Assembly: GCF_020131355.1 (NCBI RefSeq) | Contig: NZ_JAHLEL010000014.1 | Location: 124,001 to 188,000 of the forward strand | DNA length: 64,000 bases | Direction: 5' to 3' | Source: Pseudonocardia sp. ICBG1293 | GTDB lineage: Bacteria; Actinomycetota; Actinomycetes; Mycobacteriales; Pseudonocardiaceae | Part shown: piece by piece, positions 51,286-56,772 of the stretch | Layout: the number at the start of each line of letters is the position of its first letter | How positions within the stretch are numbered: the stretch's first letter is position 1 | Translations under genes and position numbers: made by a program | The notes under the pieces: generated by a model | Told to the model about the DNA's origin: nothing | Seen by the model: the letters and a program-made list of their open reading frames with translations, nothing else | The model's database searches: none

Positions 51286-51421
51286 ACGGAGGTAACACGA
51301 AAGGTCCGGTCCGTCCGCCGACGGGTGGTTCGTCCTGCGAGATCGACGACGAGCGTCGCTGATCACACCCGTTCGGCGCAGTATCGTTGCGTGAACGCGC
51401 ACGAACCTTTCGATCGGCTTA

Positions 51422-51542
51422 GAGGTCGTTTCAGAACGACTTGTCGAGTTTCCATTGACCCCTCGACGACAGATCAAACGGCAGGTCAGATAGCCGCTTG
51501 TCGTCTACAACAGACACGTCGACCTCGTTCTGAAATGACCTC
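51422..51542. mobile_element. 121-bp MITE
   Basis: Terminal repeats gaggtcgtttcagaacga and (right, reverse complement) gaggtcatttcagaacga, 17 of 18 identical. No coding capacity. The first 15 bases equal the left end of the element at 52530, so that transposase or a relative probably mobilises it. Confidence 0.82.
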
Positions 51543-51545
51543 TTA

Positions 51546-52526
51546 GAGGTCGCGCGGATTGGTTGGTGATCATGGACGTCGTGCAGGTCGGGCGTTCCAG
51601 CGGTGTGTGGTCCAGGCCTGCCGAATCAAGCTACGGAGTGTGACGATCGTGTCGGCGAGGTCGAAGAACGCGTCGACGACGATTTCTCGTCGTTCGTAGC
51701 AGCGCTGCAGCCGGTTGAAGCTGTTGTGCCAAGCGTTGGTCCGCTCGACGTGCCAGCGGCGGGTGGCCTGGATCGGCGCTTTCTCACCCTTGTGCGCGAT
51801 CTCGCCGTGCAGGCCTCGTTCGGCCAGCGTGTCGCGGGTCTTGCCGGAGTCATAGCCGGCGTCGAGGTGCACGGTGATGTCGTCGGGCAGCGGGCCGAGA
51901 GCATCGAGGCGGTCGAGGGTGGGGCCCAGTAGCGGGGAGTCGTGCCGGTTGGCTCCGGCCAGGACTCGGCCCAGCGGGATGCCGTATCCCTCGACGAGCA
52001 CCGAACGTTTCATACCCTGTTTGCGCCGGTCCACCGGCGACGGACCGGCGACCTCGCCGCCGCCGGGGGCCTTGGTGATGGCGCCATCGACGGCGATGTC
52101 GTGCAGCAGCAGACCGACGATGCGGTCGTAGGCGTCCAGGACGATCCGACGCAGCTGGGCGAAGACCCCGAGCCTGATCCACTCGTCACGACGATCGCGG
52201 ATGGTGGTCGCCGAGCAGGTGCTGTCAGCGATGCCCTCATACGAGCAGCCGAACCGCAGTACCTGCAGGAGCTTGTCGAACACGATCCGATCCGCGATCC
52301 GGCGGCGATGGCAGCCCAGCGGATGGGTGGGATCGAACTCGTCTCGATGAGGCAGCAGCGCGGTGAACTGGTCCCACAACGGCTCGGTCAGCCATGATGG
52401 CAGGGTGGGCACGCGGCCTCCAGACGATCACGAAGCGTAGATAACTTCATGATCGGCAGGCCCGTACCCGCCCTCGCCCCCAGACACTCGACCGCGGCCA
52501 AGCTGTGACCAATCCGCGCGACCTCT
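51546..52526 (-). mobile_element. IS5-family insertion sequence, 981 bp
   Basis: Perfect terminal inverted repeats gaggtcgcgcggattggt (51546-51563) and its reverse complement ending at 52526. TTA on both sides. One transposase gene, intact. Confidence 0.92.
51570..52412 (-). CDS. IS5-family transposase
   Basis: 280 residues. An N-terminal helix-turn-helix-like domain (PLWDQFTALLPHRDEF, YEGIADSTCSATTIRDR) precedes an RNase H-like DDE core: Asp in AVDGAITKAPGGGEVAG, Asp in LDAGYDSGKTRD, Glu in WHVERTNAWHNSFNRLQ. GTG 52412. It appears complete and potentially active. Related to, but clearly different from, the transposase at 55846, with which it shares the DGxITKAPGGGEVAG block. Confidence 0.92.
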   Translation of the reverse strand: MPTLPSWLTEPLWDQFTALLPHRDEFDPTHPLGCHRRRIADRIVFDKLLQVLRFGCSYEGIADSTCSATTIRDRRDEWIRLGVFAQLRRIVLDAYDRIVGLLLHDIAVDGAITKAPGGGEVAGPSPVDRRKQGMKRSVLVEGYGIPLGRVLAGANRHDSPLLGPTLDRLDALGPLPDDITVHLDAGYDSGKTRDTLAERGLHGEIAHKGEKAPIQATRRWHVERTNAWHNSFNRLQRCYERREIVVDAFFDLADTIVTLRSLIRQAWTTHRWNARPARRP

Positions 52527-52596
52527 TAGAGGTCGTTTCAGAAGTCGGCGTGTCGGTCCTGTGTGGATCGGCGCTGGTAGCTGATCATGTCCGGTC

Positions 52597-53442
52597 GTGG
52601 CGCGGCGATCTTGTGTCGAGCGATTGGTGAGCGACGAGCTGTGGGCGCTGGTGGAGCCGCTGCTGCCCAAGCCGCGCAAGCACAAGCGGGGACGGACAGG
52701 CCGTCCGCGGGTGCCGGATCGGGCCGCTCTGGCCGGGATCGTGTTCGTGCTCAAGACCGGGATCAGCTGGAACGCGCTGCCCGCCGAGCTCGGCTGTGGG
52801 TCCGGAGTGACCTGCTGGCGGCGGCTACGGCAGTGGCAGCAGGCCGGGGTCTGGGCCCAGCTGCACCGGGTGATGCTCGACCGCCTCGCCCAGCAGGGCC
52901 TGCTGGACTGGTCGCGGGCGGCGGTGGACAGCGTGAGCGTGCGGGCCAAGCGCCGCGGCGAGGCCACCGGGCCCTCGCCGACCGATCGCGGGAAGGCGGG
53001 CAGCAAGTACCACGTGCTCTGCGACCGAGGCGGGCTCCCGCTGCATGCGCTGGTCACCGGGGCGAACACCCACGACAGTCGGATGCTCGCCCCGCTGCTG
53101 GACACCAACCCCGGCGTCCGCGAACGGGCGGGACAGCCGGGGCGTCCGCGACGTCGGCCGGACAAGGTGCACGCCGACAAGGGCTACGACTATCCCCGCT
53201 GCCGCCGCTACCTGAGTGGGCGTGGGATCGGGGTGCGGATCGCCCGGCGCGGGATCGAGGACTCCACCCGGCTCGGGCGGGTCCGCTGGGTCGTCGAGCG
53301 CACCATGTCCTGGCTGCTGGACTTCCGCCGCCTCGCGCTGCGCTACGACCGCGCCGAATCCACGATCACCGCGCTGTTATCGCTGGCCTGCGCCCTGATC
53401 TGCCACCGCCGCCTCACCAAGCCGAAGCCGAAGCCGAAGTGA
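52597..53442 (+). CDS. IS5-family transposase
   Basis: 281 residues. DUF4096-type N-terminal domain (VSDELWALVEPLLPKP, AGIVFVLKTGISWNALP) and DDE core: Asp in AAVDSVSVRAKRRG, Asp in VHADKGYDYPRCRR, Glu in VVERTMSWLLDFRRLALRYD. Single reading frame, no frameshift. It ends in a Lys/Pro repeat (PKPKPK). GTG 52597; GTG 52627 is an alternative. Confidence 0.92.
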   Translation: MARRSCVERLVSDELWALVEPLLPKPRKHKRGRTGRPRVPDRAALAGIVFVLKTGISWNALPAELGCGSGVTCWRRLRQWQQAGVWAQLHRVMLDRLAQQGLLDWSRAAVDSVSVRAKRRGEATGPSPTDRGKAGSKYHVLCDRGGLPLHALVTGANTHDSRMLAPLLDTNPGVRERAGQPGRPRRRPDKVHADKGYDYPRCRRYLSGRGIGVRIARRGIEDSTRLGRVRWVVERTMSWLLDFRRLALRYDRAESTITALLSLACALICHRRLTKPKPKPK

Positions 53443-53473
53443 TGGTCGACCCAGCCCTCGCTGAGGCACTCGC

Positions 53474-54067
53474 CTACGAGGTCGGGGCCAGCGGCCGCCA
53501 GGCCAGCCACTCCAAGGCCCGGTCGGCCTCGTCAGGGTCGAAGCGGTGCGGGTCGAACGGCCCGCCCGCCCACTCCAGGCGCTCGGCGCGGTCGGGATGG
53601 TCAGGGTCGGCGAGCACGGCCTGGAAGTCCTCATACCCCCCGATCCCGCCGACGTCCTCGGGCGGGCACGCCCCCTGCCCGGCGACGCATCGCGGATAGC
53701 ACACTCCCGGCTCGACGGCCGCGACCGCCTCGACGGTGATCTCGTGGGCCCAGTTGTCACCGAAGTCGTAGACGTAACCGAACCGGTCACCAGCCTTGAC
53801 CAGCCGAAACAGCTTCTCTTTCGTCTCGTCGGCGACATCCTGTCCGGGCCAGTCCGGGTCTGGGATCCCGTAGCGGCGCCCGACGATCTCGAACTCGTGC
53901 AGATGAGAGTTCGTCCAGCCCATCACTGACTGCACCACCTCGTGCAACACCGCCAAGTCGACCTCGCCCGGCACCTGCACCCGACGCCGGACCGCCGGCA
54001 CCACCTCGGTCAGGACGATCTCCAACTCGAAAATCTTCGTCTTCTCAGACACACGAGGCGCGACCAT
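53474..54067 (-). CDS. Plasmid pRiA4b ORF-3 family protein (IS passenger)
   Basis: 197 residues. The family pattern is clear: FELEIVLTEVVPAVRRRVQVPGE (in two adjoining parts), LHEVVQSVMGWTNSHLHEFE, RFGYVYDFGDNWAHEITVE, CVAGQGACPPEDVGGIGGYED. Related proteins (TnpR of IS1096) travel with transposases; their job is unknown and no resolvase catalytic motif is present. ATG 54067. Its location inside the element ends shows it moves with the IS. Confidence 0.88.
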   Translation of the reverse strand: MVAPRVSEKTKIFELEIVLTEVVPAVRRRVQVPGEVDLAVLHEVVQSVMGWTNSHLHEFEIVGRRYGIPDPDWPGQDVADETKEKLFRLVKAGDRFGYVYDFGDNWAHEITVEAVAAVEPGVCYPRCVAGQGACPPEDVGGIGGYEDFQAVLADPDHPDRAERLEWAGGPFDPHRFDPDEADRALEWLAWRPLAPTS

Positions 54068-54134
54068 CAGCCGATGCTGCCAGCCCCGCCGTCACCGGCA
54101 GAACCGGGCCCACCACTTCTGAAACGACGTCTTA

Positions 54135-55739
54135 GCTTGGTTTTTAACCTGTGTGTTGTCGTCGCGCGGTGATGGTGCGGTCGCGTTTGACCGTTTTCCC
54201 GACGTCGTGGCTGGTCGGGGTGTGCCGGTTGCGGGAGCCGGGTGGGCGGCCGGGACCGGGTCGGCTGGGTTTCGGTGCACTGGCCGGGAGGACGGTCCGC
54301 GCGCGGATGTTCCGAAAGGCGCGGCGAACCCGGGCCGGGGTGAGCCGGGTGGGGGCGGCGGGTCGTTCCCAGGGGCGGCGTAGGTCGGCGGCCAGTGGTC
54401 GGGCCAGGCGGAGTTGGGTGTGGGAGGCGATGATCAGCCAGGTCCAGCGGTCGGCGGCTTCGGGGGTGCGCAGCTTCGGGGTTGTCCAGCCGAGGGTCTG
54501 CTTGAGCAGGCGGAATGTGTGCTCGAGATCGAATCTGCGGAGGAACGCCTGCCACCAGCGGTCCACGTCGGCGGCGCTCGCGTCGGTGGCGGAGCTCCAT
54601 AGCCACACGGGCTTCGGGTCGCGGTCGCCGGGTAGGTGGTCGACCTGCAGCCGGAGCAGGGTGCCCTCGATGATCGGCAGTTCGCCGGCGTGGTCGATCC
54701 AGCACGTGCGCCGGGTCAGCCGGGGGTGGACCCGGTCCCAGCTGGTCGCGACGGCAGTGCCGTAGCGGGTGGTCTTGGTCGTCGTGGTGTGCACCGGTTC
54801 GATCCAGGTGGCGGGCCGGTTCAAGGCGATCTCCGGGCCGTGCTTGGGTGGGCGCCCGGTCGTGCCGGGCAGCCGTGGCGGCTTGGGCAGGCGCAGGACC
54901 CGGTCCGAGCGCAGTCGTCCGACCAGCTCGACGGGCAGATCGGCCAGTACGTAGGCGAGGCGGGTGATGTCGTATCCGGTGTCGGTGACGATCACGATGT
55001 CCGGGTCCCCGGGGCGCCAGTGCCCGGCGCTGGTCAGTCGCTCGATGACCGCGCGTAGCTGGGTGGCGGTCACCGCGGTGGCGTCGTCGGCCGGGCCGAG
55101 TCGAACCGCGTCCAGGACCGCCGTCCACGACGTCCGGCCCGTCTCCAGGGCGGCGACGAACGAGTATGGCCAGCCCGGGATCAGCTGCGCGTTGCCCTTT
55201 CCGCGTCCGTAGACATGGCAGAACAGCCGCTGATCGCTGGTCGTAGCGTCCGGGCGCAGCCACGGGCTGACATCCACGGCGAGCACGATCCGACCGTCGA
55301 CGGCACGGGGCAACGGGAGACCGGCCAGCACCCGGCGCAGCCTCCGGGCGGAGATCCTGCCACAGGCCAACGCGTCGTACATCGCGCCGTGCCCGCGACG
55401 GTGCTCAGCCACCAAGGTCAGCTCCGGTAGCGAGCGAACCGGGCCGTCCGCGCACAACACGGCGTCGGTGAGCTCGAACAGCGCATCCGCTCGCGCAGTC
55501 AACGACGCGTAGAACTCCTGCCGAAACCCGGCAAGATCACCCCGCCCGACCGGAGTGTCACCGAGCACCACTGGCCCGGCAGAAGCCACACTGACCACCA
55601 CGGCCACCGCTTTCGTCTTCGATGTTCTGTGGAAGGAACCCGAAGATGATCAAGCGGTGGCCGTACCCATGTCCCGCCGACACGCCGCCCGAACTACATC
55701 AACCTCCCAGCAGCAGCTCCGGAAGGTTAAAGATCAAGC
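54135..55739 (-). mobile_element. IS4/IS701-like insertion sequence, 1605 bp
   Basis: Ends gcttggtttttaacct (54135-54150) and, in reverse complement from 55739, gcttgatctttaacct (14 of 16). TTA on both sides (a CTTAG reading is also possible). One transposase gene, whose TAA stop lies inside the left inverted repeat. Confidence 0.85.
54144..55607 (-). CDS. IS4/IS701-like transposase (DDE superfamily)
   Basis: 487 residues. Catalytic candidates: Asp in IVLAVDVSPWLRPDA, Asp in IVIVTDTGYDITRL, and Glu in FDLEHTFRLLKQTLGW, with an inserted beta-strand domain before the Glu as in IS4-type enzymes. The C-terminus is basic and Pro-rich (SRPGPGRPPGSRNRH). GTG start. It looks complete. It is unrelated to the IS5-type enzymes beside it. 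Confidence 0.87.
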   Translation of the reverse strand: MAVVVSVASAGPVVLGDTPVGRGDLAGFRQEFYASLTARADALFELTDAVLCADGPVRSLPELTLVAEHRRGHGAMYDALACGRISARRLRRVLAGLPLPRAVDGRIVLAVDVSPWLRPDATTSDQRLFCHVYGRGKGNAQLIPGWPYSFVAALETGRTSWTAVLDAVRLGPADDATAVTATQLRAVIERLTSAGHWRPGDPDIVIVTDTGYDITRLAYVLADLPVELVGRLRSDRVLRLPKPPRLPGTTGRPPKHGPEIALNRPATWIEPVHTTTTKTTRYGTAVATSWDRVHPRLTRRTCWIDHAGELPIIEGTLLRLQVDHLPGDRDPKPVWLWSSATDASAADVDRWWQAFLRRFDLEHTFRLLKQTLGWTTPKLRTPEAADRWTWLIIASHTQLRLARPLAADLRRPWERPAAPTRLTPARVRRAFRNIRARTVLPASAPKPSRPGPGRPPGSRNRHTPTSHDVGKTVKRDRTITARRQHTG

Positions 55740-55742
55740 TTA

Positions 55743-56750
55743 GAGCGTCCGGCAGTAGAGGTGGCCGTGTGTCGGTGTTGGTAGAGACACGGACCTGCAA
55801 GTGATCATGGGATTGCTGATGTCCTGATGGTCGCCTGGAGGGTCCGTGCCTCTATTGCCAGAATCGCTGATCGACCCCCTCTGGGTCGAGTTCGCTGCCC
55901 TGATCGAGGCAGAGCGGCGCCCGGAGTTCGACCCGGCCCATCCGTGGGGCTGTCACCGTCGCCGGATCTCTGATCGGGTCGTGTTCGACCACGTCGTTGC
56001 CGCTCTGGTGCACGGTAGTGGCTACGAACGCATCGCCACGCCGGGTTGCTCGGACCGCACCATCCGCCGCCGTCTCGATGACTGGGCCACCGCGGGAGTC
56101 AGCGAGGAACTGCTCCGCACCGCGCTGGCCGGTTACGACCAGATACTCGGCCTGGATCTTGACGATCTGGCGGTCGACGGATCGATCACCAAGGCACCAG
56201 GCGGAGGCGAGGTGGCCGGCCGCAGCCCTGTCGGCCGCGGCAAGCAGGGCACGAAACGGTCCGTGGCCTGCGATGACCAGGGCATCCCGCTGCACCTGGT
56301 CGCGGCGCGAGCCAACGACCATGACTCGCCCCTGCTGGAACCGACCTTGACCGGCATCGTGACGATGATCGGCCCGCTGCCCCGCCACCGCGACGCCCAC
56401 GGTGGTGATCTGTTCCCGACCGTGCACCTGGACCGCGGCTATGACTCCGGCAAGACCCGTACTCTGCTGCACACCCTGGGCTTCACCGGCGAGATCGCGA
56501 CCACGGGGGTCCCGGCGCCGATCCAGGCAGGACGACGGTGGCCCATCGAGCGCACGCACTCCTGGATGAACGGCTACGGCAAGCTGCGCCGGTTCACCGA
56601 TCGCCGGAAGATCATCGTCGAGTTCTACCTCAACCTCGCCGCCGCGCTCACCGTGATCCGCCGGCTGATCAACCGTGCCCGCAGCCGCTACCGCTGGACA
56701 ACCCGACCCACGACCCGTCGACTCCGATAACCATCAATCGCCGGACGCTC
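55743..56750 (+). mobile_element. IS5-family insertion sequence, 1008 bp
   Basis: Ends gagcgtccggc (55743-55753) and its reverse complement gccggacgctc (56740-56750). TTA on both sides. One transposase gene on the plus strand. Confidence 0.9.
55846..56730 (+). CDS. IS5-family transposase
   Basis: 294 residues. N-terminal SLIDPLWVEFAALIEAE and YERIATPGCSDRTIRRRLDD, then the DDE core: Asp in AVDGSITKAPGGGEVAGRS, Asp in HLDRGYDSGKTRT, Glu in PIERTHSWMNGYGKLRRF. Same subgroup as the 51570 transposase but with a 12-residue insert (PRHRDAHGGDLF). GTG 55846. Intact. Confidence 0.92.
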   Translation: MPLLPESLIDPLWVEFAALIEAERRPEFDPAHPWGCHRRRISDRVVFDHVVAALVHGSGYERIATPGCSDRTIRRRLDDWATAGVSEELLRTALAGYDQILGLDLDDLAVDGSITKAPGGGEVAGRSPVGRGKQGTKRSVACDDQGIPLHLVAARANDHDSPLLEPTLTGIVTMIGPLPRHRDAHGGDLFPTVHLDRGYDSGKTRTLLHTLGFTGEIATTGVPAPIQAGRRWPIERTHSWMNGYGKLRRFTDRRKIIVEFYLNLAAALTVIRRLINRARSRYRWTTRPTTRRLR

Positions 56751-56772
56751 TTACGTGATTGCGATCGTCAAT

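Follow-up and report, generated by a model that had tools for sequence, protein, structure and literature searches.

A TTA-joined array of five transposons in Pseudonocardia sp. ICBG1293 and a target motif that its elements may rebuild

A 64,000-nucleotide stretch of the Pseudonocardia sp. ICBG1293 genome (hereafter the window; contig NZ_JAHLEL010000014.1, positions 124,001 to 188,000) contains a miniature inverted-repeat transposable element (MITE) and four insertion sequences (IS A to IS D) that lie end to end at positions 51419..56753 and are joined by single TTA trinucleotides. How do five different mobile elements come to abut without a spare base between them? Probably the five transposons accumulated as later elements entered TTA copies beside earlier ones, and the stack grew by recreating its own target, CTWAG (where W is T or A). 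In the proposed mechanism, the transposases would make staggered 3-bp cuts at TWA, with a preference for C-T-(T/A)-A-G. Each insertion would leave a fresh copy of the landing site, the next element would dock there, and the stack would grow. Homologous recombination between near-identical copies would shuffle the interiors of arrays and at times swap flanks between sites. The order in which the five elements entered is a matter of inference.

The window array and its empty site

The order TTA-MITE-TTA-A-TTA-B-TTA-C-TTA-D-TTA, read from the window sequence, contains zero spare bases and comprises the following features.

51419..51421, strand not applicable: TTA joint 1, host flank / MITE; seven relatives have just one TTA at the empty site
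51422..51542, + strand: MITE, 121 bp, ends GAGGTCGTTTCAGAA..TTCTGAAATGACCTC; first 15 bp identical to the left end of IS B
51543..51545, strand not applicable: TTA joint 2, MITE / IS A; window sequence
51546..52525, - strand: IS A, 980 bp; transposase 51570-52412 (-), IS5 family (NF033580)
52526..52528, strand not applicable: TTA joint 3, IS A / IS B; window sequence
52529..54131, + strand: IS B, 1603 bp; transposase 52597-53442 (+), IS5 family (NF033580); passenger gene 53474-54067 (-)
54132..54134, strand not applicable: TTA joint 4, IS B / IS C; window sequence
54135..55739, - strand: IS C, 1605 bp; transposase 54144-55607 (-), NF041680 family, with weaker similarity to IS701 models
55740..55742, strand not applicable: TTA joint 5, IS C / IS D; window sequence
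55743..56750, + strand: IS D, 1008 bp; transposase 55846-56730 (+), IS5 family (NF033580)
56751..56753, strand not applicable: TTA joint 6, IS D / host flank; window sequence and empty sites in relatives

A preliminary description of this DNA had proposed that the five elements abut exactly and involve at least three transposase types. The abutment is confirmed, with six TTAs joining the MITE and the four ISs, and the types can be refined to four transposases in two families, three IS5-type and one NF041680/IS701-like. TTA occurs ten times in the 5,371-bp stretch, and six of these occurrences are array joints. The transposases of IS A, B and D score 157.3, 248.1 and 116.2 bits against the IS5 profile NF033580, all above its curated cut-off of 110. 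That of IS C passes the NF041680 profile (591.9 bits, cut-off 440) and falls below the cut-offs of the IS701 models (75.8 versus 170 bits and 26.4 versus 150 bits). IS A ends in 18-bp identical inverted repeats, and the terminal inverted repeats are GAGGTCGTTTCAGAA and TTCTGAAACGACGTC in IS B and GAGCGTCCGGC and GCCGGACGCTC in IS D. The passenger gene of IS B, which adjoins the transposase gene, belongs to the pRiA4b ORF-3 family (PF07929), and IS B is therefore an IS with cargo. The MITE has the hallmarks of its class, being 121 bp long, devoid of a transposase gene and equipped with a 15-bp end common to IS B, whose transposase may mobilize it in trans.

The tips of the elements suggest how such an array could feed itself. 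The MITE, IS A and IS B start with GAGGTC, IS D with GAGCGTC and IS C with GCTTGG; G is the first and C the last base of each of the five, so that every inner joint reads C-TTA-G. With tips of this kind, an element entering any TWA creates two joints with half of CTWAG or more, and one entering a joint leaves two full CTWAG sites in place of one. Arrays thereby supply their own scarce target.

The joined flanks of the window site were searched in 62 genomes of the same genus. Whole-length matches were found in G005 (93%), G030 (88%) and G031 (75%), and shorter matches across the junction in G006, G026, G008 and G032. In all seven relatives examined the empty site is CTTAC with a single TTA, as the preliminary description had anticipated; G008 reads CTTACA, and G026 has two additional bases right after CTTAC. 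One TTA in relatives against six in the window is consistent with five insertions. Uninterrupted sites were likewise found for all four additional arrays submitted, each with matching outer joints, including an array of 13 elements on contig C44. The empty site of C14:255431 is TAA in four of four relatives, that of C14:309842 is TGA in four of four (TAA in the host), and that of C38:404003 is TTA in G031 and TTG in G030. For the 13-element array it is TTA in G031, TCT in G005 and G030, and CAG in G006.

Homologues occur in relatives at 73-89% identity, mostly as single insertions. Among 25 full-length A, B and D homologues in eight other genomes (partial copies dropped), 24 are bordered by TTA or TAA at both ends and one by TGA at both ends, in agreement with a target duplication of 3 bp. 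Flanks are equal in 21, and the four unequal cases are all IS B. A family-wide search for IS B, with two candidates scored per genome, returned full-length matches only within the genus, and close relatives of IS B are present on two Pseudonocardia plasmids. In G011, 13 bp of the end of a B homologue (L219, C1:839364-843369) lie in front of it, between TTA and TAA (near 1190-1204), and look like a relic of an abutting element.

Intermediates with one to four elements, which the preliminary description had expected in related genomes, were not found at the window site; graded states do occur at paralogous copies of a target elsewhere. An element with an IS5-type transposase (NF033580 frames) has its TTA target intact in 25 host copies. 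Occupied copies of this target recovered with both flanks hold 2, 2, 4, 4 and 4 elements, and a copy with a variant flank holds 5. A second TTA, about 280 bp from the first, holds 1, 1, 1, 1, 3 and 3 elements in six copies with both flanks. The two TTA/TAA sites repeatedly occupied by arrays lie at about 1216-1520 of L271 (G000:C6:93922), where an IS701-type transposase frame (NF033540) is found beside the IS5-type element.

Arrays across the genome and their probable shared target

The window belongs to contig C14 of a 7.96 Mb host assembly of 86 contigs. A search of this assembly with the array sequence gave at least 230 matches (40 of 834 first-look candidates scored), and a MITE 32-mer gave 218 matches with up to 2 mismatches. 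Stretches were fetched around array matches (39) and around MITE copies (39), which merged into 73 stretches of 661,666 bp. The array-match stretches were selected for array content, and shares calculated from them are therefore biased. The first 100 listed MITE matches, all covered by the fetched stretches, were not selected for arrays; 58 of these MITEs adjoin another element and 42 are alone, redundant contigs included. The 73 stretches contain 307 element pieces in 119 blocks, of which 53 hold a single element, 66 hold two to thirteen elements, and nine are cut by a stretch or contig end.

Neighboring elements are spaced in a way that chance would not produce. There are 188 gaps of up to 8 bp, and 178 of them are exactly TWA (98 TAA and 80 TTA, counting the four inner joints of the window). 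The other ten, among which overlapping and nested copies are counted, comprise four gapless contacts (nested or truncated elements), two TTAA, two TTATTA, one TA and one ATAA. No gap measures 9-50 bp, and 46 gaps are of at least 51 bp. On these statistics from the 73 stretches the abutment in the window is far beyond chance, which upholds the early claim that random insertion is unlikely to account for it, and the other TTA-joined arrays sought at that stage are present in large number. A pattern for joints between MITE, A and B matches the + strand of the host 137 times and its reversed control 0 times. In the other 61 genomes of the genus the pattern has one match, an A-TAA-A tandem in G031, against four for the reversed control. 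G023 has one B-TTA-C abutment. A longer joint pattern, scanned against a genome collection from which records of the host genome were possibly left out, had one match, in an actinobacterial metagenome-assembled genome. In two places of the host (L039 3031-4993; L140, C14:412872) an IS A lies inside an internal TAA of another IS A, after base 899. Contig C22 (115 kb), possibly plasmid DNA or a recent acquisition, has single MITEs at 15 of its 24 listed copies and 6 of the 18 blocks whose outer joints differ (L146-L150, L043, L044).

The bases around TWA point to the preferred target. Of 65 distinct targets whose outer joints are equal, 24 show C before and G after TWA, 37 show only one of the two and 4 show neither; the corresponding numbers for 975 host TWA sites are 45, 340 and 590. 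CTWAG is enriched 8-fold at occupied targets (24/65 versus 45/975, Fisher p about 5e-14). The motif is scarce in the GC-rich host, where its density was measured on 462,085 bp and amounts to 45 sites; the same stretches contain 178 joints. The preliminary description had suspected a repeated landing site, perhaps one preferred because IS ends adjoin the TTA. This site probably takes the form of CTWAG, and serial insertion into a TTA left by an earlier element gains support from the 3-bp duplications, the single-TTA empty sites and the many other arrays.

IS C, whose transposase belongs to the other family, is the most telling case for a shared target. A pattern search with up to 2 mismatches, which misses more divergent copies, found 14 host copies; all 14 start at CTWAG, 13 have elements on both sides and one has an element on one side. 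Among eight distinct single ends of IS C homologues in relatives (L081 and L082 merged as one site, L095 dropped as unclear), five are TCA or TGA and three are TTA or TAA. A broader and more tentative proposal is that CTWAG serves as a communal docking port. Two transposase families would share the 5-bp site, their tips would rebuild the motif, and this positive feedback would create safe landing pads throughout the genome, which would double as recombination ports for distant loci. Landing in a joint should spare genes, and survival therefore likely adds to targeting.

An unlikely alternative is that element ends are themselves the target: the transposase complex would be drawn to resident terminal repeats, in the manner of IS30, and CTWAG would matter little. 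On rough reasoning, joints look used far more than host CTWAG sites, by about tenfold per site for the MITE, an excess that survival bias or end attraction could cause. Attraction to ends would also suit the excess of D-MITE neighbor pairs (42 observed, 18 expected), and IS30 is described, in excerpts of PMC9333248, as inserting beside its own repeats. However, IS30 junctions as characterized in those excerpts join only left to right inverted repeat (IRL-IRR), whereas host neighbors are of different kinds and in all orientations (left-right, LR, 87; right-right, RR, 48; left-left, LL, 43). Same-type neighbors are avoided rather than favored, with 12 observed (nested A counted) against 42.7 expected on shuffling and a minimum of 23 across 5,000 shuffles; recombination might remove tandem twins, or the transposase might block them. 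Host targets, moreover, are likewise enriched for CTWAG.

Mixed joints and the remaining alternatives

Single arrays contain both TTA and TAA, which rules out pure serial insertion without later change as the full story. With copies that have odd gaps or ends dropped, left and right joints are unequal in 20 of 131 MITEs, 17 of 42 IS B, 9 of 46 IS A, 4 of 16 D2 and none of 14 IS C copies; for single MITEs the number is 3 of 42. In 39 blocks whose outer joints agree, inner joints differ from the outer ones in 20 of 108 cases. At 20 repeated host half-sites, in contrast, the 77 joints all share the middle base of their half-site, including the 35 that belong to the five commonest. A host-adjacent base that is kept beside inner bases that are shuffled fits recombination or gene conversion between arrays, and the joints as a whole point to recombination as the cause of the shuffling.

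Exchanged flanks are found as well. The left flank of C47:83926 and the right flank of C47:353751 are separated by about 262 kb in the host and adjoin in G006 as a continuous site; swapping the right flanks of these two arrays restores the G006 site, not equal joints. C30:27896 and C46:48706 are unequal-joint hybrids of two sites that lie about 280 bp apart in another IS, and a B copy in G030 has its two flanks at two different B copies in G032. Within the host stretches, 131 of 133 full-length MITEs, 47 of 50 IS A and 13 of 14 IS C copies are identical, and the burst looks recent for some elements; IS B has 13 sequence versions in 43 copies and D2 has 17 in 19. IS D occurs in several versions of 980-1008 bp that are 77-98% identical, some with swapped ends (L036, L037, L049, L062), and additionally as a MITE of 152-153 bp. 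The varied versions and swapped ends suggest recombination among IS D copies.

Transposition itself could mix the joints if an incoming element kept its old 3-nt overhang and paired despite a middle mismatch, as outlined for mPing excision. This is improbable. Precedent comes from work on mPing that, in the portion of PMC4561436 concerned, used matching and non-matching TTA/TAA duplications and inferred a 3-base 5' overhang. Two-element arrays with equal outer and a differing middle joint (C14:255431, C17:4655), unequal flanks in 4 of 15 full-length IS B homologues of relatives, and a host-flank base that differs from G006 at one site would all be compatible with it. Retained overhangs predict variation on the host side, yet the host-side joints agree at the repeated half-sites (some on redundant contigs) and 39 of 42 single MITEs are equal on both sides. 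Given the agreement of host-side joints, overhang retention is judged less likely than recombination as the source of mixed joints.

There is even less reason to think that whole arrays moved or multiplied as finished blocks, in which two elements would lend their outer ends to a single composite transposon. A MITE-D-MITE trio recurs six times in a single orientation, as such blocks would; among the listed trios other orientations occur three times and twice, D-MITE pairing is common in itself, and array contents differ by eye. Finally, it is very improbable that an assembler strung repeat copies together, a worry that stems from the 86 contigs, a contamination estimate of 5.68%, nearly identical MITE, A and C copies and one B-bearing segment repeated on C4, C44, C45 and C46, and that is reduced, not removed, by exact TWA at 178 joints, mostly matching outer joints and empty sites in relatives, all unlike false joins, and by abutments in other assemblies (A-TAA-A in G031, B-TTA-C in G023). 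An identical IS B insertion with its flanks is present on four contigs (L032, L051, L052, L053), and parts of the assembly are therefore redundant.

Several observations weigh against a stack that grew by serial insertion into a recreated CTWAG. The target in the window is only a half-match (CTTAC), as are the 37 of 65 targets with C or G on one side only, and three of the four additional empty sites carry non-TWA bases in some relatives. Selection against gene hits is mixed into the CTWAG preference, because this was measured on surviving insertions. Joints seem to be used more than host CTWAG sites, for which the preference alone may fall short as an explanation; the rarity of same-type neighbors calls for a further cause, and recombinational loss of tandem twins is one candidate. 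Regarding recombination, 25 of the 77 agreeing joints are at half-sites on redundant-looking contigs, the G006 site has TTA where the host copy has TAA at the host flank, and 18 blocks have unequal outer joints (two of them one site on redundant contigs). Two of the three unequal single MITEs are not accounted for by a known hybrid site. The interior orders of arrays depend on the assembly.

Comparison with known systems

Serial insertion at a rebuilt CTWAG would amount to a simple sequence rule: a motif that is scarce in the host and restored with every insertion would allow elements to pile up end to end without exhausting their target. The rule is testable and predicts where the next copy would land. 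It would possibly provide a bacterial counterpart to the bursts of TWA-seeking MITEs in plants, and distant parts of the genome may exchange DNA at the arrays. The separate ingredients, namely target duplication, nested insertion and TWA specificity, are already known. Mixed-family arrays this extensive, sustained by a shared target that they regenerate, seem to be a novel variation on these; among the entries listed by a literature search limited to open-licence papers, none described arrays of mixed ISs with a common 3-bp site at their joints, and the passages on PIF/Harbinger elements and IS30 do not mention stacks of mixed families.

In the IS5 family, some subgroups have a TNA-type target duplication. 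IS A, B and D share with this family a match to its curated model and a short T...A duplication. The IS701 family has a 4-bp target duplication; IS C passes NF041680, fails the IS701 cut-offs and uses a TNA target of 3 bp. Insertion of IS30 beside the end of a resident element creates an end-to-end junction and (IS30)2 dimers, and the junction is described as active in the relevant part of PMC9333248. An end-to-end junction made by insertion next to an existing element is common to both systems. For IS30, like joins like and is described only as IRL-IRR; the host arrays are not confined to left-to-right junctions of the same element, and join mostly different elements in all orientations at a 3-bp TWA.

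Maize PIF has the extended target CWCTTAGWG, a motif that a literature search did not retrieve. In target behavior there is a likeness to eukaryotic PIF/Harbinger elements and Tourist MITEs, which PMC2213677 and PMC4561436 associate with 3-bp TTA/TAA duplications and an IS5-like transposase. Members of this superfamily are said, in a section of PMC2836001, to need two element-encoded proteins; IS A and IS D have one profiled gene each, and the second gene of IS B is of the unrelated family PF07929. The TWA duplication, the MITEs and the IS5-like transposases are alike, and the resemblance is one of target behavior, with membership not assigned. The host arrays differ in being bacterial, in the use of the same target by IS C from another family, and in reaching up to 13 elements.

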